This document shows positions 19,840-28,020 of a DNA stretch of 36,721 bases, piece by piece. The stretch's first letter is position 1. Every line of letters begins with the position of its first letter. The position numbers and the translations under genes are program-made. This stretch comes from Cytophagaceae bacterium (GTDB lineage Bacteria > Bacteroidota > Bacteroidia > Cytophagales > Flexibacteraceae): positions 1-36,721 of the forward strand of contig JAIYDB010000052.1 of assembly GCA_027487695.1 (NCBI GenBank), read 5' to 3'. The notes under the pieces were generated by a model. The model searched no databases, had not been told where the DNA came from, and saw nothing but the letters and a program-made list of their open reading frames with translations.

Positions 19840-21045
19840 TTAGTCGGTTGTATTACTAATAACGCTAATCTTGTTTTTTAGCCTTTGTACCTTTGCAATA
19901 AGGCGGTCTCGGTCACTGTCAAGTATGGTGAAATGTCCCATCTTTCTGTATGGCCTTGTACTTGTTTTGCCGTATAAATGCAGGAATACATTCTTTTCTT
20001 CCAGTAATTCAGTTGCGCCAGCATACATTACAGGACCGTTAAAACCTTCTGCCCCTACCAAATTAACCATTGCAGCTTCTTGCTTCAAAGCAGGACTTCC
20101 TAAAGGAAAGCCCAAAATTGCGCGCCAGTGTTGTTCAAACTGTGATGTAATGCAGGCATCAATCGAATGATGACCGCTATTATGCGGACGTGGCGCTACC
20201 TCATTTACTAATAGCCTACCAGATTTTTCAAGGAATAATTCCACAGCTAGCAATCCTACAATGCCAAGTTTATTCGCTATTTCTTTTGCTATTTCTTGGG
20301 CATCCGCAGCTATCATTGCCGGAATATCGGCAGGAGCAATAAGGTAATCAACCATATTTTGCTCATGATAAACTAGTTCGACAGGGTCGTAGCAAATGCA
20401 TTCGCCGTTAACATTACGGGCTACAATTACACTTAGTTCTTTTTCAAGTTCAACAGCTTTTTCAAGTACACCAGGGGCATCAAAACCAAGGTTTATCTCA
20501 CTTGCAGTATTTATTTTTTGAACTCCTCTGCCGTCAAAACCACCCGTGGCTATTTTATTGAAGGCGGGTAAAAAATGTTCATTCTCTGCAATTTCAGCCA
20601 AGGAGTTCACTACCACAAAATCTGAAGTAGCAATATTATTGTCTAAGTAAAATTGCTTTTGCTTTCGCTTATCTTTAATTAACTCAATGATCTGAGGTTG
20701 CGGATATACTTTAACCCCCTCTTGTTCTAACTGAGCTAGTGCCTCTGTATTAACCCCTTCTATTTCTATAGTTACAAGGTTTACTTGCCTACCAAAGTTA
20801 AGTACTGTGTTATAATCTGAAAAGTTGCCTACTGTAAAGTTTGAGCAACTTTTAGAACAAGGTGCATTAGGATCTGGATCTAAAATATGGAGGTCTAAAT
20901 TCCAAGAAATGGCAGGCCTTAGGAGCATTTGCCCTAATTGCCCACCACCTAGTATTCCAATTTTGAAAGGTTGCTTAAAATAATCGTCTGTTGTTTGACT
21001 ACTCGAGCCACCTTCTGGTAAGGGTTGTGTATTATTCATTTTCAA
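19840..21045 (-). CDS. purK: 5-(carboxyamino)imidazole ribonucleotide synthase PurK
   Basis: ATP-grasp enzyme converting AIR, bicarbonate and ATP to N5-CAIR, the substrate of PurE (4764-5288). After a 27-residue N-terminal extension rich in Ser, Thr and Gln, the dinucleotide-like motif GILGGGQLGQM (30-40) begins the pre-ATP-grasp domain. KIATGGFDGRGVQK is the ATP-binding loop, VELFLEKSGRLLVNEVAPRPHNSGH holds the metal ligands, and ELLEEKNVFLHLYGK is the C-terminal domain. Its first 14 bases overlap the upstream gene, so it is the last gene of the amidoligase transcript. purE is about 15 kb away. Confidence 0.96.
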   Translation of the reverse strand: MKMNNTQPLPEGGSSSQTTDDYFKQPFKIGILGGGQLGQMLLRPAISWNLDLHILDPDPNAPCSKSCSNFTVGNFSDYNTVLNFGRQVNLVTIEIEGVNTEALAQLEQEGVKVYPQPQIIELIKDKRKQKQFYLDNNIATSDFVVVNSLAEIAENEHFLPAFNKIATGGFDGRGVQKINTASEINLGFDAPGVLEKAVELEKELSVIVARNVNGECICYDPVELVYHEQNMVDYLIAPADIPAMIAADAQEIAKEIANKLGIVGLLAVELFLEKSGRLLVNEVAPRPHNSGHHSIDACITSQFEQHWRAILGFPLGSPALKQEAAMVNLVGAEGFNGPVMYAGATELLEEKNVFLHLYGKTSTRPYRKMGHFTILDSDRDRLIAKVQRLKNKISVISNTTD

Positions 21046-22228
21046 AATAGGCCATTGAACCGCCTACCCAATCTTTATCTTTGTTATAACGGACTCCTAT
21101 CATTTCGCCTTTACTTAACCTAACTAATGAGTTGATAAGCATAGGGTTACTTGCTTCATCAGGCCAAATAAATAGCAATCTAATTTCTGCTTTAACTGGT
21201 TCGTGGTGTACATCGTAAAATGCAGGGGCATACTTTACCTTCTTCATCAAGATGTAATTCCAACGATCTTCAATATCGTTAATATCGTCTTTGGTTACAT
21301 TAATTTTTACACCAGTACCTGCAAAAGAGAACAATGGTTTCAATACATAGTTCTCCAAATCGGTAGGAGGGGTATCAATTTCATTCAAGAAAGAAGTAGC
21401 TGGTACATACTTGCTTTTCAGATATGGTAAGGTGTACTTACTAATTCTAAAGAACCAATTTGGGTGACCTGCCCATTCAACATCCACAGCTTCTGTAAGG
21501 TTCCATTGAAGCTTTAAATCGGTACGCTGATGTAATTCATCGAAAATAACACGATTATAAATACGTTTGATATGGGTCTTAACCCCATCGCGCATATAAT
21601 AGAGCTTGTTTTCTTCTCTGATTATTTCAGTGACACAAACCGATTTTATGTTGATTGCCGCCTCTGTGCAGTAGAAATCGATTTGTGTTTTTTGCTTGAA
21701 AGGTTCAATTTCCAATAGCACCACATTTTCATCTGGGTGCCCGTTGGTAATTACATCCTTTAAAATTTTATGGTAATTAGGTTTATCTAATCCATAAAAA
21801 TAAGATTGCCACTTTTCTGGAATACCGTAATGTTTCCTGCCTTTTTCAGCAATAAGCTCTTGAAAGAAATAAAGTGATGGAAAACCTTGTAATTCAATTA
21901 GTTGTGGTTCGAATTCACCAGTTGCATCCTGACAAACTGCAAAATCAATGGCTAGGAAATTGGTATGCCCATTTTCATTTGGTACTTGGCAATTTCTAGG
22001 AACAGCGTTTTTTGTAATATCCTTATAATCAGACCTTTTTAGTACGTTAATAATATCGTCGCAAGCTCTAATGAGCTTTTTACGAAAATACTTCGGTACA
22101 AAAAGGGGCGATTCAGCCACCCTAAATTCAATCTGGTAATTGTATTCCTTGTCTAAATCGGCAAGGAATGCCTTGTACTTTTCATCAGTAAAATTACTGT
22201 TGAACCATTGGCGCATTTCCTGGTGCAT
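21032..22228 (-). CDS. Putative circularly permuted ATP-grasp protein
   Basis: A 398-aa cytoplasmic protein without recognisable named family. AIDF (93-96) and PQLIELQGFPS (109-119, Glu112) resemble the metal-binding strand of ATP-grasp enzymes. A later ENYVLKPLFSFAGTGV (about 292-307, Lys297 and a Gly-rich loop) resembles the ATP-binding lysine and loop. In standard ATP-grasp enzymes the loop comes first; the reversed order here matches the circularly permuted ATP-grasp fold (as in glutathionylspermidine synthetase). The C-terminus contains AEIRLLFIWPDEASNP and ends in SMAYFENE. It starts 17 bp after the M29-like gene and overlaps purK by 14 bp. Ligase activity is an inference. Confidence 0.6.
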   Translation of the reverse strand: MHQEMRQWFNSNFTDEKYKAFLADLDKEYNYQIEFRVAESPLFVPKYFRKKLIRACDDIINVLKRSDYKDITKNAVPRNCQVPNENGHTNFLAIDFAVCQDATGEFEPQLIELQGFPSLYFFQELIAEKGRKHYGIPEKWQSYFYGLDKPNYHKILKDVITNGHPDENVVLLEIEPFKQKTQIDFYCTEAAINIKSVCVTEIIREENKLYYMRDGVKTHIKRIYNRVIFDELHQRTDLKLQWNLTEAVDVEWAGHPNWFFRISKYTLPYLKSKYVPATSFLNEIDTPPTDLENYVLKPLFSFAGTGVKINVTKDDINDIEDRWNYILMKKVKYAPAFYDVHHEPVKAEIRLLFIWPDEASNPMLINSLVRLSKGEMIGVRYNKDKDWVGGSMAYFENE

Positions 22229-22245
22229 AGGGTATTAGGCTTAGA

Positions 22246-23265
22246 TTAGAAAATGAACTTACCTTCTTTTAGAACTTGTTGTTGGTCTAGCCAAATATCT
22301 ACTGTAGAAGAAACACAATCAATATGCGTTTTACTTATCCAATTAGCACCTGTATGTTCTGCATATGGATGTCCGTAAGCAATATGAACACCTGGAATTT
22401 TTTCGTCTTGTAGAATGTGACCAATAATTTTGGTTACAGCTATATTAGTTCCAATGGCAAACTCCCCTGCTCTATCGCTGTTTTCGTCAGTATGGGTATA
22501 GAGGTTAAATTCTTCCAATAGCTCCTTATTATCGCAACGCATTGCCATAATGCGGCTGTTTTCCATTTCAACAGTTAATGGAGTATCTACCAAATTACCA
22601 TACTTTTCACATAGGTAATCGCCCACTACGCCATCAATTACGAAAACACCATCCACTCGCATAGGTGATGTAAATATTTCGCCGCCTGGTAGGTTACCCC
22701 ACTTATCAGGAGAAATGATGCCACTGGTTTTTAACCATTTTAGGTCCGGCGAAAACTGAGCAACCATATCGGTACCAATTTTACTCTTAACAGTACAAGT
22801 GGTAGCTGCTCTAGCAATGGTTACTAATTGCTGACTTAGAGCATCTACAGCCAAGAAATCGGCACGCATACCTTCAAGCATTATTTGCTTGTTGATATTT
22901 ACCATGTGGCCATGGCGGATGCGTTTACGGTTAACTACGCTGCTCATTTGCATTCTAGAACCTAACTCGCCAGTTTTTGCTCTAGCGCAGAAAATGGATA
23001 CTTGAGCAGTTTCTAATTCATCTAATACTTGCTGAGGCATGTTTACCATAGGCCTCGGGGTTAAATCTTCTAAAACAAAGAAAACACAAGGACTACCAAT
23101 TTTCTTGATTTCAGCATCAAGGGAAGCAGCTATTTCTAGGCATTCATTATCGGTAATGATTACTATTTTTTCTTCTGGTTTTAAACGCAAGCATACGTTT
23201 ATGGCATTATATGCACCAGGCGAAAGTTCCTTATCGAAGGCTATATTGGTTAGCTCTGTTCTCAT
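22246..23265 (-). CDS. M29-like metalloaminopeptidase, short form
   Basis: A 339-aa protein resembling the M29 (AmpS/AmpT) aminopeptidases, which use two metal ions. Candidate ligands appear in family order: Glu196 in PGGEIFTSP, Glu268 in GEFAIGTN, His294 and Tyr301 in HIAYGHPY, and His314 with Asp316 in THIDC. The H-to-Y spacing of 7 matches the family. Classical M29 enzymes are about 400-415 aa; here the N-terminal region is shorter and the Y-to-H spacing is 13 rather than about 26, so it is a divergent short form. It lies between a YbdK/GCS2 ligase gene and a CP-ATP-grasp-like gene, and a strong hairpin lies just upstream. It may trim or hydrolyse the cluster's peptide product. Confidence 0.8.
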   Translation of the reverse strand: MRTELTNIAFDKELSPGAYNAINVCLRLKPEEKIVIITDNECLEIAASLDAEIKKIGSPCVFFVLEDLTPRPMVNMPQQVLDELETAQVSIFCARAKTGELGSRMQMSSVVNRKRIRHGHMVNINKQIMLEGMRADFLAVDALSQQLVTIARAATTCTVKSKIGTDMVAQFSPDLKWLKTSGIISPDKWGNLPGGEIFTSPMRVDGVFVIDGVVGDYLCEKYGNLVDTPLTVEMENSRIMAMRCDNKELLEEFNLYTHTDENSDRAGEFAIGTNIAVTKIIGHILQDEKIPGVHIAYGHPYAEHTGANWISKTHIDCVSSTVDIWLDQQQVLKEGKFIF

Positions 23266-23278
23266 AGGTAATAATTTT

Positions 23279-23310
23279 CCCCACCCAAACTGTTTAAAAT
23301 TTGGGTGGGG
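23279..23310 (-). promoter_or_regulatory. Strong intercistronic hairpin between the GCS2-type ligase and M29-like genes
   Basis: An 11-bp perfect GC-rich stem (CCCCACCCAAA, 23279-23289, with its complement 23300-23310) and a 10-nt loop, placed 13 bp before the M29-like ATG at 23265. On the minus strand the stem is followed by AAAATTATTACC rather than a T run, so it is not a canonical terminator. It could act as an mRNA processing or stability element, or block the ribosome-binding region of the M29-like gene. A smaller 6-bp hairpin (23338-23351) directly follows the GCS2-type stop codon. Confidence 0.6.
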
Positions 23311-23351
23311 TTGGTGAATTTAAGTTTTTATAAATATGTACTGTTCAGTAC

Positions 23352-24488
23352 TTAAGGCTTTGGTAATTGTAAACTAGAATTTTGGTATGCACCTAAGCCT
23401 TGATATGTTTCTGCTATTATATGGTCAACCACTGCCTGCAAGCTACCAGTTTCACGGAATACTTTCAACTGCCTATCGGCACCAGTTCCGTTCTCCATCA
23501 TTTTATAAATGTAGTTTACTTCGTGGCGGCTGCCAAGTTCATCAACCACATCGTCAATAAACTCCATAAGCTCATGAATAAGCATACGGGTATCTACTTC
23601 CTCTTGCTTACCGAAGTCAATGAGCTTACCGTCTAAACCATAGCGACAAGCACGCCATTTGTTTTCGTTAATTAATGCTCTAGAATATAAACGGAAGTTC
23701 AGGTTAGCCTTCATCAGTTTATAAACCTTGGCAACAATTGCCTGCATAACTGCAGCAAGAGCTATGGTTTCATCAATGCGCATAGGCACATCACAAACCC
23801 TGAATTCTACCGTCTGAAAGTATGGGTGTAACCTTATATCCCACCATATTTTCTTAGCATTATCCATACAATTTGTTTTAACCAGCAAATTGATGTAGCT
23901 ATCTAAATCGGCAACCGAACCGAAATAATCAGGAATACCTGTTCTTGGGAATTTATCAAAAACCTTGGTTCTGAACGATTTAAAACCAGTGTTTCTTCCT
24001 TCCCAGAATGGCGAGTTAGTGCTAAGGGCAAAAATATGTGGCAAGAAATACCTTGCCGCATTCATTATTTGCAAACCTTCCTCCCTGCTTGGAATGCCAA
24101 CGTGTACGTGTAAACCAAAAATAAGGTTAGCACGTGCAGCATCTTGCATTTCTTCTACAATAGCCTCGTAGCGAGGGTGGTCAGTAATGGCTTGGTTTTG
24201 CCATAAACTGAAAGGGTGGGTTCCAGCTGCAGCAATTTTTAGGTTACTTCTATCGGCCAAATCGGCAATAACTCTGCGTAGGAAAGTTACTTCCCTTCTG
24301 GCTTCATCTATGTTATTACAAATATTTGTACCTACTTCCACCATACTCTGGTGCATTTCGGCCTTTATTTGTTCTTTAAGCAATATGGTGCCACCTTCCA
24401 CTATCTGCTGCATATGCGAACGCAGCTCTCGGGTTACGGGGTCAATTACTTGAAACTCTTCTTCAATACCTAGCGTAAATTGTGGCAT
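23352..24488 (-). CDS. YbdK-type carboxylate-amine ligase (GCS2 family)
   Basis: A 378-aa ATP-dependent carboxylate-amine ligase of the glutamate-cysteine ligase 2 family. The N-terminal GIEEEFQVID (7-16) is the family signature with the metal-binding glutamates. Further hallmarks are EMHQSMVEVGTNIC, AAAGTHPFSLW, GLHVHVGIPS with the paired histidines, and KIWWDIRLHPYFQTVEFRVCD. E. coli YbdK has weak glutamate-cysteine ligase activity in vitro, but family substrates are mostly unknown. Full length. It is the second gene after the ATP-grasp gene (49 bp gap) in the amidoligase cluster, so I infer it forms one amide bond of the product. Confidence 0.93.
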   Translation of the reverse strand: MPQFTLGIEEEFQVIDPVTRELRSHMQQIVEGGTILLKEQIKAEMHQSMVEVGTNICNNIDEARREVTFLRRVIADLADRSNLKIAAAGTHPFSLWQNQAITDHPRYEAIVEEMQDAARANLIFGLHVHVGIPSREEGLQIMNAARYFLPHIFALSTNSPFWEGRNTGFKSFRTKVFDKFPRTGIPDYFGSVADLDSYINLLVKTNCMDNAKKIWWDIRLHPYFQTVEFRVCDVPMRIDETIALAAVMQAIVAKVYKLMKANLNFRLYSRALINENKWRACRYGLDGKLIDFGKQEEVDTRMLIHELMEFIDDVVDELGSRHEVNYIYKMMENGTGADRQLKVFRETGSLQAVVDHIIAETYQGLGAYQNSSLQLPKP

Positions 24489-24537
24489 AAATTAAGCCTT
24501 TAGTTTCTTTGTGGTGTTTATTTCTGGAAAGCAACTA

Positions 24538-25521
24538 TTACTTGGCTGTGTTATCGGCATCAGGATTCAAAACAGGCATGTTTAAAGTTGCTTGTTTTGT
24601 AAAGTCGCCCCAAGTAAGGTTTGGTTTGCCTGGCTTATACAGCTTGGCTCTGGCAATGGCCATTTTGGCAACAGCTTCAACTACCCATTCAAAGTTTTCT
24701 TGGCCTACAGAAGCTAAATCCGCATCTGGTGCAGGATTACAGAAATCAATGGCTAATGGTACTCCATTTCGTACAGCAAATTCTACTGTATTAATATCGT
24801 AGCCTAAGCCTTTATTTAACCGTAGTACATAGTCTTTAATGGTAGTCATTAGCTTTTTGCTTTGCTTACCACCTTCAACCACGTAACGTAAATGATGTGG
24901 GTTGCGTGGCTCGTACTGCATAATGCGTACATCTTTACCACCAATAGAATAGCAACGATAGTATTCTTCAAATACTACTTCTTCTTGAAGCATCATTACG
25001 AATTGCTCGGTTTCTGCATAAGCATTAAAAAACTGCTCAATAGTTTCAAGCTTATACACGTTTTTCCAGCCGCCACCATCGAATGGCTTAAAATAGGCTG
25101 GGAAACCTACATATTCAAATATACCTTCCCAGTCTAAAGGGAATTTAAGGTTTGAAAACGATTTTGCCGTGGTATCTGGCGGCATTTGATGACTAGGTAA
25201 TAGCACAGTTCTAGGAACTGGCACCCCTAATCTAATAGCCAATGCATTGTTAAAGAACTTCTCATCGGCACTCCACCAAAATGGGTTGTTCATTACTGCG
25301 GTACCTGCTAAGGCTGCATTTTTTAAGAAGCCTCTATAGAAGGGAACGTTATGCGAAATTCTATCTATGATAGCGGCATAATCAGGGCCTTCAGATTGGA
25401 TTACTTTGTCTATTAGTACAGGTTCGGCGGTAATGTTAGTGCCCTCCTTTTCATTAATTCTTTGGATAACTGCTTCGGGAAACGAGCGTTCTTGACCGAA
25501 TAAAATTCCTATTTTTTTCAT
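24538..25521 (-). CDS. ATP-grasp carboxylate-amine ligase
   Basis: A 327-aa ATP-grasp enzyme. The N-terminal preATP-grasp part begins MKKIGILFGQERSF. The ATP-binding segment is GFPAYFKPFDGGGWKNV (139-155) with Lys145 and a glycine loop. EEYYRCYSIGGKDVRI (185-200) is the following strand-turn. The metal-binding signature VEFAVRNGVPLAIDFCNPAP has Glu247, Asp259 and Asn262. RimK- and D-Ala-D-Ala ligase-like members share this plan and join a carboxylate to an amine via an acyl phosphate. The substrate is unknown. It has the best promoter in the window just upstream and is followed by the GCS2-type gene. Confidence 0.9.
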   Translation of the reverse strand: MKKIGILFGQERSFPEAVIQRINEKEGTNITAEPVLIDKVIQSEGPDYAAIIDRISHNVPFYRGFLKNAALAGTAVMNNPFWWSADEKFFNNALAIRLGVPVPRTVLLPSHQMPPDTTAKSFSNLKFPLDWEGIFEYVGFPAYFKPFDGGGWKNVYKLETIEQFFNAYAETEQFVMMLQEEVVFEEYYRCYSIGGKDVRIMQYEPRNPHHLRYVVEGGKQSKKLMTTIKDYVLRLNKGLGYDINTVEFAVRNGVPLAIDFCNPAPDADLASVGQENFEWVVEAVAKMAIARAKLYKPGKPNLTWGDFTKQATLNMPVLNPDADNTAK

Positions 25522-25570
25522 TTAGGCAATATTTAAGTTGGTGTTTTCAGGATAAGACAGAAATTCTGCT

Positions 25571-25600
25571 CAAAAGTAATAAGTACCAGCGAAGCTACAA
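25571..25600 (-). promoter_or_regulatory. Bacteroidota-type promoter (CTTG-19-TACTTTTG) for the ATP-grasp-to-purK unit
   Basis: On the minus strand the -7 box TACTTTTG (25578-25571) is preceded by a -33-like CTTG with 19-nt spacing, which matches the Bacteroidota sigma-A promoter architecture. It is 50 bp upstream of the ATP-grasp ATG at 25521, in the 80-bp gap after the esterase gene. It suggests that the ligases and peptidase can be transcribed separately from the esterase. Confidence 0.55.
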
Positions 25601-25601
25601 G

Positions 25602-26324
25602 TTATTTCCCAAGCTTATTTAACATTTCAGCAATATAATCTGGGAACATATCGCGCCAAACTGGCCAATCGTGTATGCCTCCTTGTCTAATATCAAGCCA
25701 ATGGTAAATACCTTTCATTCCCAAAATTCTTGAAAGTTGAAGGTTAGAATCCAAACAAAAATCGTGTTCGCCAATGCCTAAAATAATACCCATTTGTTCT
25801 AAATGAGGATTTTTGAGGTCGGCTAAAAAGTCCATTGGGTTATTGAAGTAGGTGTTTTCGTCATAATAGCCATCCATCTGATTTCGTATATCATAGGCTG
25901 CTCCCATATTTATTAGAAATCCGGTAACATCTGGATGTTTGAAAGCAAAATTAGTAGCATGATACCCACCAAAGCTGCAACCGCCTACTGCTATTTTTTC
26001 TGAATTTGTTTCTTCTTGAATAAGTGGAACAATTTCATCACGGATATAACGATCGTAAGTGATATGATTCTTTACTCTATCTGCTGGGTGTATCTCTTTG
26101 TTATACCAGCTATGGCTATCAATACTATCTACACAATAAATTTTAATTAGACCTTTTTCTACAAACCATTGAACAGAATCTATAAGTTTAAAATCTTTAT
26201 TCTGATAATACTTACCCATTGATGTAGGAAATAGCAATACAGGGTAACCCGAATCGCCAAATACTAACATTTCAGTTTCTATGCCCAAAATTGGGGAAAG
26301 CCATTTTTTGTATTGTTCTGTCAT
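25602..26324 (-). CDS. Esterase-D-like alpha/beta hydrolase
   Basis: A 240-aa cytoplasmic alpha/beta hydrolase without a signal peptide. The nucleophile elbow GGCSFGG places the catalytic serine at Ser117. Asp188 in GEHDFC and His218 in GGIHDWP complete a plausible triad. Segment DSIDSHSWYNKE resembles the putative esterase (esterase D/Fes-like) family often seen with peptide- or siderophore-like metabolites. The length is normal for the family. It lies 80 bp upstream of the ATP-grasp gene and 74 bp after the porP/sprF-like gene. I infer it belongs to the amidoligase cluster, perhaps hydrolysing or transferring an ester or thioester; substrate unknown. Confidence 0.88.
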   Translation of the reverse strand: MTEQYKKWLSPILGIETEMLVFGDSGYPVLLFPTSMGKYYQNKDFKLIDSVQWFVEKGLIKIYCVDSIDSHSWYNKEIHPADRVKNHITYDRYIRDEIVPLIQEETNSEKIAVGGCSFGGYHATNFAFKHPDVTGFLINMGAAYDIRNQMDGYYDENTYFNNPMDFLADLKNPHLEQMGIILGIGEHDFCLDSNLQLSRILGMKGIYHWLDIRQGGIHDWPVWRDMFPDYIAEMLNKLGK

Positions 26325-26398: not shown

Positions 26399-27445
26399 TT
26401 AAATTTTCGGACAAGGTATTGGAGCATAACGCTTAGGCTTATTCTTAGGGAAAGTTTGCCAGCTAAGAATTAAGCTTATCTCGTGCGATCCGTTACTTAA
26501 ACCAATCAATTGATTAAGGTGATAATCATAACTATACCCAAAGGTGAAGTTATTAACAACGGCTCCTAACATTATAATAGCGGCATCTTGAGAGAATACC
26601 CCGGTGTTTCCTGCAGACGATAAAGGATGACTTCTGTGGTAAATGCCAGCCAATAAATAATTGTGCTGAAGGCTTAAACCCAAATTCATTTGATGAAAAT
26701 CGCGCTGAACTTTAAATAAGGCGTTTGGAGTGAGGTAGGTTTCGTTTACCTTATCGGTTACATTCCTTTTTTTTGGGGATAGCCTAATTTTATACCCAGT
26801 ATTAAAAGTATATCTGATGGGTAAGCGTTCTGCTGAACTAAATCCCTTTAGGTTGTTTTGCGACGGACGGTTTAAATGTGCCACTGCTAAACCTACATAC
26901 CAACTTTTGGTATAATAAGAAGTTCCTAAAGATAAATCTGGATACACAACAGAACCGTTAGCAGCATTTCTATTTTCACCCGATGGGGTTACTTGACCAT
27001 CAGTTAATAGCTGGTCTTCAAAAGTGAACTTGAAAAAATCAACACTTCTTTGATAAACTCCTGCGGATGCGCCAACTGATAGCCTTTGCGTTTTGCTAAG
27101 AGGTAAGTGATAGGCATAGCTAGCAACTAAACCAGTATTCCGTAAACCGTTACTGCTGATGTAATCGTTAAAAATGCTTACCCCAATACCGCTATTGTTA
27201 TTAGGCAAAAATCCATCAAAACTTGCAGCTGATGTTACCATACCACCAGTAACTTGTGGCCACTGGTTCCTTGTGTTCAAAATTACTCTGCTTTGCTGCG
27301 ATGCACCAGTATAGGCAGGATTAAGGTATAGCGGCGCAGCATAAAACTGACTAAAGTGCGCATCTTGTCCCAAGACCTTATTTCCAAGTCCTGAAAATGC
27401 GATAGCAAAGGCAGCAAAAATAAAAATTAGCTTACTTTTTTCCAC
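26399..27445 (-). CDS. PorP/SprF-family type IX secretion outer-membrane protein
   Basis: A 348-aa outer-membrane beta-barrel protein of the PorP/SprF family. The signal peptide ends near VLG, giving the mature N-terminus QDAHFSQFYAAPLYLNPAYTG, the family hallmark. The body alternates amphipathic strands with SLGTSYYTKSWYVGLAVAHL and HQMNLGLSLQHNYLLAGIYHRS segments, and the end carries the CP motif (IPCPKI). Family members help secrete or anchor T9SS substrates such as SprB adhesin. Its start overlaps the end of gldD by 19 bp, so the two are a coupled operon. Whether it is core PorP or a paralogue tied to a specific adhesin cannot be decided here. Confidence 0.94.
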   Translation of the reverse strand: MEKSKLIFIFAAFAIAFSGLGNKVLGQDAHFSQFYAAPLYLNPAYTGASQQSRVILNTRNQWPQVTGGMVTSAASFDGFLPNNNSGIGVSIFNDYISSNGLRNTGLVASYAYHLPLSKTQRLSVGASAGVYQRSVDFFKFTFEDQLLTDGQVTPSGENRNAANGSVVYPDLSLGTSYYTKSWYVGLAVAHLNRPSQNNLKGFSSAERLPIRYTFNTGYKIRLSPKKRNVTDKVNETYLTPNALFKVQRDFHQMNLGLSLQHNYLLAGIYHRSHPLSSAGNTGVFSQDAAIIMLGAVVNNFTFGYSYDYHLNQLIGLSNGSHEISLILSWQTFPKNKPKRYAPIPCPKI

Positions 27446-28020
27446 TTTAATGTTTTAAGCAAATGCTTCATATCATTTGCAATGTACTTAATAACGGGTG
27501 CAAGGCTATCGTTCTTGCTTGCAGTTTTGAAATATAAAGCACCTCTCATAAAATGATTGGCACTATCGGTAGTATAAAACTGAAACTGAGATGGTACTTC
27601 GCCCTGTAATTCAAATAGATATGCATAATTACCATTATCTAACAATAGTCTCCCTTCTTCAATACCTGATGCCTTAACTTGGTGCTTATTTACTAAGTTT
27701 CTGCTATCAACAATAAGCTTAGTAAGGTTATTAACTTTGTTGGTTAAAGGCTTATAGGTAATTTGAACATCAGCATCAAATTGAGGGTAATTCACATTCA
27801 CCCAAAATTCTTCTGCATACTTAGTAGTATCTGGTTTTACAGTTGCTATACCGTTAGCTTCAAAGCTGTATGGGTATTCTTTATCAAAAGCTAAGTACTG
27901 GGGTAGTGGTAAATCAATTCTATGAAAACCTCTTTTCTTAGGTAAATAAGTTTCTGAACAGGCTGAAAGTAAGCCTATTAACACTATTCCTAAAACCAGT
28001 AACCGATTAAATTTATTCAT
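27427..28020 (-). CDS. gldD: Gliding motility/T9SS lipoprotein GldD
   Basis: A 197-aa lipoprotein. The signal peptide ends in lipobox LSAC with Cys21, then SETYLPKKRGFHRIDLPLPQY, matching the GldD-type N-terminus (PKxxGxxRIDLP). The body has VNVNYPQFDADVQITYKPL and a C-terminal KYIANDMKHLLKTLKW helix, both typical. GldD is an essential gliding component of Flavobacterium and is required for type IX secretion. It sits directly upstream of the porP/sprF-like gene, overlapping by 19 bp. The gene is divergent from pdxA across a 93-bp gap. Confidence 0.93.
   Translation of the reverse strand: MNKFNRLLVLGIVLIGLLSACSETYLPKKRGFHRIDLPLPQYLAFDKEYPYSFEANGIATVKPDTTKYAEEFWVNVNYPQFDADVQITYKPLTNKVNNLTKLIVDSRNLVNKHQVKASGIEEGRLLLDNGNYAYLFELQGEVPSQFQFYTTDSANHFMRGALYFKTASKNDSLAPVIKYIANDMKHLLKTLKWKKVS

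Follow-up and report, generated by a model that had tools for sequence, protein, structure and literature searches.

Do the five consecutive genes found in one stretch of a Cytophagaceae genome constitute a single biochemical system and, if so, what might that system do? The window examined here, i.e. the whole stretch of DNA that was analysed, comprises 36,721 nucleotides (assembly GCA_027487695.1, contig JAIYDB010000052.1), and its minus strand carries at 21032-26324 five intact open reading frames (ORFs) in the order EST-ATPG-GCS2-M29-CPG, followed by purK. These names denote an esterase-type hydrolase (EST), an ATP-grasp-like ligase (ATPG), a carboxylate-amine ligase (GCS2), a short M29-family peptidase-like protein (M29), and a protein resembling circularly permuted ATP-grasp ligases (CPG). 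A previous description made from the letters of the DNA alone (the sequence-only reading) had proposed that they form one uncharacterised amidoligase cluster, and the order, strand, and coordinates that it gave for the five genes, as well as the gaps of 80, 49, 86, and 17 bp between them, were all reproduced. Our analyses indicate that these genes represent a real, widespread, and co-inherited enzyme module, because the genomes that contain CPG are precisely those that contain ATPG, EST and GCS2 follow them, and the gene order is conserved. For the function of the module, the interpretation that we prefer, and to which we assign about an even chance of being correct, is that of a single pathway in which three ligases would build amide bonds, a slot filled interchangeably by M29 or by a glutamine amidotransferase (GATase)-like protein (GAT) would supply a hydrolase, and EST would carry out a further cleavage.

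For the order to which the window belongs, the search for CPG covered 390 genomes, and the 194 genomes compared here were taken to be those with the handles G000-G193. CPG and ATPG are present in exactly the same 68 of these 194 genomes, and in some of them (e.g. G002) they co-occur even though they lie on different contigs. The proposal of a single system, which would fall if homologues rarely co-occurred, withstood this comparison. Among the 68 genomes, EST (counted at E<1e-60) is found in 62, GCS2 in 55, and GAT, which is absent from the window, in 65; the p values calculated for co-occurrence in this sample ignore shared ancestry. The CPG genomes that lack GAT are G000 and G001, both of which contain M29, and the 89%-complete G148, while a GCS2 match without CPG was observed in two genomes of the order (G025, where it is weak, and G169).

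A CPG profile search of genome contigs identified at least 581 confirmed relatives, and the best 80 among them serve here as the named loci. The latter are mostly from Bacteroidetes (viz. Cytophagales, Chitinophagales, Flavobacteriia, and Lewinella) and include one metagenome-assembled genome (MAG) from the Ignavibacteria, a separate phylum in the NCBI taxonomy, and one MAG labelled Williamsia. GAT is present in 62 of the 80 best loci and is the next same-strand module gene upstream of CPG in 61 of them, the distance being no more than 200 bp in 55 of these. Where more than 6 kb of upstream sequence is available (65 of the best loci), the full order EST-ATPG-GCS2-GAT-CPG is seen in 20 loci, GAT-CPG only in 22, and CPG alone in 12. 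The module and its recurrent order are thus conserved, but of the exact set of five genes, whose co-conservation the sequence-only reading had suggested surveying, the M29 form is a minority and the usual fourth gene is GAT.

Since the module is also flanked by purK, porP, and gldD, which stay together in G004 and G007 as they do in the window, adjacency alone is no proof of a shared function, and a chance neighbourhood of unrelated metabolic genes has to be considered. We regard such a neighbourhood as scarcely credible, and it was rejected on the grounds of the identical CPG and ATPG sets (68/68) together with a gene order that is conserved across families, orders, and classes. CPG is present in 183 of the 390 order genomes sampled and in 49 of 148 genomes from the phylum, a breadth which suggests that the pathway probably makes something useful.

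The fourth position of the module

Some relative of M29 is found in 119 of 395 genomes from the phylum, and its close form (57-70% identity) is present there in the window genome and in eight genomes from outside the class. Within the 194 order genomes the close form is limited to G000 and G001, three others matching weakly. Six of the eight other-class M29 genomes show the collinear arrangement ATPG-GCS2-M29-CPG, a seventh has GCS2-M29-CPG at the end of a contig, and in the eighth (G588) M29 is without module neighbours. The arrangement ATPG-GCS2-M29-CPG is also present in the Ignavibacteria MAG (L120). Small ORFs lie between M29 and CPG in L202 and L204, and in G001 about 0.8 kb separates M29 from the CPG gene that follows it, while GCS2 is found on a different contig and ATPG also elsewhere. 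In the genomes searched, GAT and the close M29 form exclude each other. GAT was detected in 0 of ten M29 genomes in a search that recovered both of its positive controls (2/2) and in which the L120 genome was not included, no M29 was found in the 69 genomes from the order that carry GAT, and none of the 80 best loci contains both genes.

In a joint tree of ATPG, GCS2, and CPG, the M29 genomes G000 and G001 fall among members of their family that possess GAT (G002, G003, G004, and G006), and in family f54 the GAT genomes G517 and G525 stand beside the M29 genome G680 (SH-aLRT (approximate likelihood-ratio test)/bootstrap support of 84/90 and 81/93). The GCS2 tree places the window family apart from the other-class rows (100/98) and the CPG tree shows the same separation less firmly (84/92), rows from other families not being counted in either case, and in the M29 tree G000 and G001 are paired (98/99) among other-class sequences. 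The simplest reading of these relationships is that two or more exchanges between GAT and M29 have taken place; an alternative history, in which both slot genes were ancestral and underwent differing losses, may also account for them.

An ORF resembling HNH/AP2 endonucleases, for which the domain call comes from the L033 copy, was observed at the slot junction in four relatives from the window family (Table 1). No match to it was found in the window.

Table 1. Genes of the module in the window and endonuclease-like ORFs at the slot junction of relatives
Feature	Locus	Coordinates	Strand	Description
EST	window	25602..26324	minus	240 aa, alpha/beta hydrolase, PF00756 esterase
ATPG	window	24538..25521	minus	327 aa, ATP-grasp-like amide ligase, weakly RimK/R2K-like
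GCS2	window	23352..24488	minus	378 aa, YbdK-family carboxylate-amine ligase, NF010039
M29	window	22246..23265	minus	339 aa, short M29-family metallopeptidase; slot mostly occupied by GAT in relatives
CPG	window	21032..22228	minus	398 aa, read as GspS/YgiC-like circularly permuted ATP-grasp ligase
HNH/AP2-like ORF	L033	8538-9047		right before M29
HNH/AP2-like ORF	L065	9101-9616		right after GCS2
HNH/AP2-like ORF	L066	10950-11462		right after GCS2
HNH/AP2-like ORF	L067	8750-9259		right after GCS2

Protein families and conserved residues

The assignment of GCS2 to the GCS2/YbdK ligases was confirmed by profile scans, in which the protein matches PF04107 (5e-66) and passes the test for YbdK/PRK13515 carboxylate-amine ligases far above the cut-off (NF010039, 554.3 bits vs. 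371). EST matches PF00756 (3.7e-9), and its residues S117, D188, and H218, which are invariant in 13/13 aligned sequences including that of the window, would constitute a catalytic triad. The description of this protein as esterase-D-like proved to be a loose fit (fghA_ester_D, 0.015); an enterochelin esterase model matches at 0.0012. As GCS2 is a member of the family that includes glutamate-cysteine ligase, one could envisage that the module makes a low-molecular-weight thiol, with GCS2 and ATPG producing a glutathione-like peptide, CPG adding an amine to it, EST acting like an S-formylglutathione hydrolase, DinB-type proteins using the thiol, and GAT or M29 degrading it. A DinB/YfiT-like gene is indeed located inside the unit in some relatives; however, a DinB match is present in only 5 of the 80 best loci, the matches of EST to the enterochelin esterase and S-formylglutathione hydrolase models are both weak, and no sign specific to cysteine was seen, which makes a thiol pathway very improbable in our estimation.

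Members of the other families were scanned against Pfam one by one, with matches counted at E<=0.1 for CPG, ATPG, and GAT and at E<=0.001 for M29. The ATPG protein of the window gave by itself no credible Pfam family match, and its score against the RimK family model (1e-5) is far below the model cut-off. Among its relatives, 16/29 match R2K_2 (PF18299; best 5.9e-5) and 8/29 match R2K_3, and 7 of the 10 members inspected singly match PF18299, all of them below its cut-off. The residues K145, G149-G151, E180, D259, and N262 are invariant in 29/29 aligned sequences, and K153, which is kept in at least 90% of them, is a candidate for the second Lys of the R2K type. Membership in the R2K clade is recognised by a PF18299/PF14243 match and by an additional Lys located in the loop between strands 2 and 3. 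R2K enzymes are described as being without the usual ATP-grasp loop motif (PMC4431377), and ATPG is unlike them in keeping its Gly-rich stretch G149-G151. A comparison with RimK/GshB by hhalign gave no support (probability 0.2%). The 327-aa protein, for which an ATP-grasp fold had been claimed, can accordingly be called ATP-grasp-like, at scores that are weak.

The weak resemblance to R2K-type ATP-grasps, for which a role in protein modification has been proposed (PMC4431377), raises the question of whether the module is a protein-tagging system, in which ATPG or CPG would add residues to a protein and GAT or M29 would remove them, in the manner of RimK-like ligases and peptidases. The pairing of a ligase with a hydrolase in the module is in keeping with tagging; on the other hand, no substrate-like protein was found among the recurrent neighbours, a survey which took in ORFs of at least 80 aa, and three different ligases accompanied by esterases would look more like stepwise small-molecule synthesis. 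We therefore consider protein tagging to be quite unlikely.

For CPG, the window protein alone likewise gave no credible Pfam family match, and 15/56 relatives match PF03738 (GSP_synth; best 9.4e-4), a few of them also matching other permuted ATP-grasp families. Its acidic block E112-x-Q114 precedes the lysine block K297, the blocks are invariant in 56/56 aligned sequences, and they match collinearly the motif blocks of aligned YgiC, YjfC, and Gss, the last represented by its C-terminal part. The sole PDB match of CPG is YgiC (E 0.068), and an hhalign control against the standard ATP-grasps RimK/GshB gave nothing (0.1%). Because of this motif order and the collinearity with YgiC, and with nothing seen against RimK/GshB, CPG is best read as a putative divergent permuted ATP-grasp. 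The earlier call of a permuted ATP-grasp for the 398-aa protein thus gains support at the level of sequence from motif order and PF03738, while the family match itself is weak. In family f44 (L229-L231), CPG homologues were observed that are without the other module genes and that adjoin an ORF resembling an amidohydrolase by eye.

The M29 protein of the window matches PF02073 over residues 156-306 of 339 (1.6e-13; 50.7 bits vs. a cut-off of 27), as do 11/11 M29 proteins at the threshold used. E196, E268, H294, H314, and D316 are invariant in 11/11 aligned sequences, and we take all five to be metal ligands; the first three align with the E, E, and H of AmpS (1zjc), while H314 and D316 fall on the H-x-D motif in the NicX chain. 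The call of an M29-like peptidase is therefore firm, and an aminopeptidase activity is predicted. A function as a NicX-like 2,5-dihydroxypyridine dioxygenase was rejected because the Glu ligands are retained, E196 being kept at a site where NicX (7cn3) has F.

GAT, which is known here from relatives only, matches the class-I GATase family PF00117 in 34/34 members, and its Cys-His-Glu triad (C106, H209, and E211) is invariant in 34/34 aligned sequences. It also resembles homoserine O-succinyltransferase (10/34 members), so that acyl transfer may be possible. Peptidase_C26, the family of gamma-glutamyl hydrolases, was not among the matches of the 34 members scanned, and homology between GAT and M29 found no support (probability 0.3%). 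The intact triad, the uniform class-I GATase match, and the lack of Peptidase_C26 among the matches are what one would expect if GAT were an ammonia donor for an amide made by one of the ligases, M29 had a different role, and the exclusion of the two marked pathway variants with different products. Such a division is unlikely in our view, as the order of ATPG, GCS2, and CPG remains constant while the slot changes, and an M29 enzyme would not be expected to supply ammonia from glutamine.

A candidate pathway and its known relatives

In the single pathway that we prefer, ATPG, GCS2, and CPG would form successive ATP-dependent amide bonds without the ribosome or a non-ribosomal peptide synthetase (NRPS), with CPG probably capping a carboxylate with an amine, by analogy to the use of spermidine by its distant relative YgiC. 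The slot enzyme, either the Cys-His-Glu GATase-like protein or the metal-dependent M29, which have apparently replaced each other, would hydrolyse a bond in the amide product and so remove or trim one of its groups, the probable target being a glutamyl or an N-terminal residue, and EST would contribute the cleavage of an amide or ester to this pathway. Since three amide ligases adjoin the slot hydrolase, building followed by trimming or deprotection is the likeliest overall logic, and amide hydrolysis would be what a GATase fold with a Cys triad shares with a peptidase that depends on metal. Gene order, co-occurrence, and the conserved putative catalytic residues were observed directly, as was the fact that no genome searched holds GAT together with the close M29 form; the reactions, substrates, and product (perhaps a small peptide), and the functional equivalence of GAT and M29, we infer.

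Several observations weigh against this interpretation. That GAT and the close M29 form exclude each other is no proof that they catalyse the same reaction, and the GAT genomes G517 and G525 (from outside the class) contain at a different location a distantly related M29 protein (28-30% identity). The module is not always complete, as 13 of the 68 CPG genomes, all from family f4, lack this GCS2, and GAT is present without CPG in four order genomes (G009, G033, G048, and G185). Among 20 CPG loci from outside the class, CPG stands alone in 10, the arrangement ATPG-GCS2-CPG has no slot gene nearby in 7, and M29 occupies the slot in none of these loci, GAT being found between GCS2 and CPG in 3; six of the seven slot-less loci carry EST, all six being from family f36. 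The window family is not set apart from other classes by the ATPG tree, and the partner of G001 in the joint tree is G004 (98/84) and not G000, whose placement is unsure. Lastly, the hhalign alignment of CPG with YgiC reached only a p value of 3.2e-4 and a probability of 39%, and CPG has E-x-Q (Q114 in 56/56) where YgiC, YjfC, and Gss have E-x-N (E115 and N117).

A substitute for GCS2 in family f4 was sought with PF04107 in five genomes and rejected, four giving a weak match only and the fifth none; the weak matches sit in frames of 656-682 aa (one frame read). The GAT homologues of G033 and G048 (L068 and L069; 49% identity) were seen without CPG, ATPG, or module neighbours.

A broader claim, that of a phylum-wide pathway which yields a peptide-amine conjugate and for which an M29 peptidase and a cysteine enzyme of GATase fold are interchangeable parts, is at this stage doubtful. 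If it is true, the GATase-like protein would be a peptidase or amidase and not an ammonia donor, and gene transfer would have changed the occupant of the fourth slot more than once, with possible help from the HNH/AP2 endonuclease-like gene. The slot exchange also offers a genetic handle on function, i.e. on whether two unrelated enzymes share a reaction and on which bond is cut, and it cautions against reading a GATase-like gene as an ammonia donor.

Amidoligase clusters as a kind of system are already known, and the exchange of GAT and M29 is the new point here. The module contains two or more unrelated amide ligases together with hydrolases, and these are co-conserved; it thereby resembles the amidoligase gene clusters, independent of NRPSs, that Iyer et al. 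reportedly surveyed in 2009 (a paper cited in PMC4431377 as reference 16). Those clusters are said to contain ATP-grasp proteins, COOH-NH2 ligases, and peptidases, and likewise to unite hydrolases with a number of mutually unrelated amide ligases in a conserved neighbourhood. No published description of this cluster was recognised among the papers listed in a literature search which left out that survey, and the survey may hold a prior description. In the glutamylation and deglutamylation of putrescine by PuuA and PuuD, a hydrolase of GATase fold (PuuD) frees an amine that a ligase had protected, and the module may follow a similar logic, differing in its ligase folds and in a GAT without a Peptidase_C26 match. 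Glutathionylspermidine synthetase/amidase is a further analogy, Gss being annotated as a glutathionylspermidine amidase/synthetase in which the synthetase is paired with an amidase. YgiC and YjfC are annotated in E. coli K-12 as peptide-spermidine ligases and have been described as peptidylpolyamine synthetases (PMC12568646, citing Pederick 2023). CPG shares with YgiC, YjfC, and Gss the collinear motif blocks and the permuted motif order, but differs from them in its E-x-Q motif, in its weak similarity, and in a neighbouring hydrolase that is GATase-like or M29. The window M29 is like AmpS in matching PF02073 and in its aligned E, E, and H, but it is shorter (about 340 vs. 418 aa), its best match is partial, and it is embedded in a ligase operon.

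Neighbouring genes and further observations

An overlap of purK with the last gene of the module, described earlier as a fact, amounts to 14 bp if the TTG at 21045 is the start and depends on this choice, because the conserved domain of purK begins only at about residue 28 in a profile scan. Directly upstream of EST, at 26399-28020, lie PorP/SprF-family and GldD genes of gliding and type IX secretion. The purK, porP, and gldD genes were rejected as module members, full synteny with the window being found only in L035 and L036 among 60 relative loci, with single porP or gldD matches in three further loci. Four terminator-like sites were found on the minus strand of the window, all of them inside genes and none in the gaps. 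The promoter scan gave 14 sites against a shuffle mean of 24.7 and the terminator scan 12 against 7.0, and neither was used for any inference.

A second esterase (EST2), mostly divergent from EST, is present in 21 of the 80 best loci (e.g. L045:3848-4792, L051:14987-16510, and L073:4099-5751), and its long forms of 507-550 aa suggest, by eye only, a DinB-like part. In family f18 (L073:480-5751, L074, and L100), and likewise in Arenibacter, Gelidibacter, and Arcticiflavibacter, a second unit adjoins the core module and consists of another ATP-grasp, an M17 leucyl aminopeptidase, and an EST2 relative; L125, L141, and L145 are also among the loci concerned.

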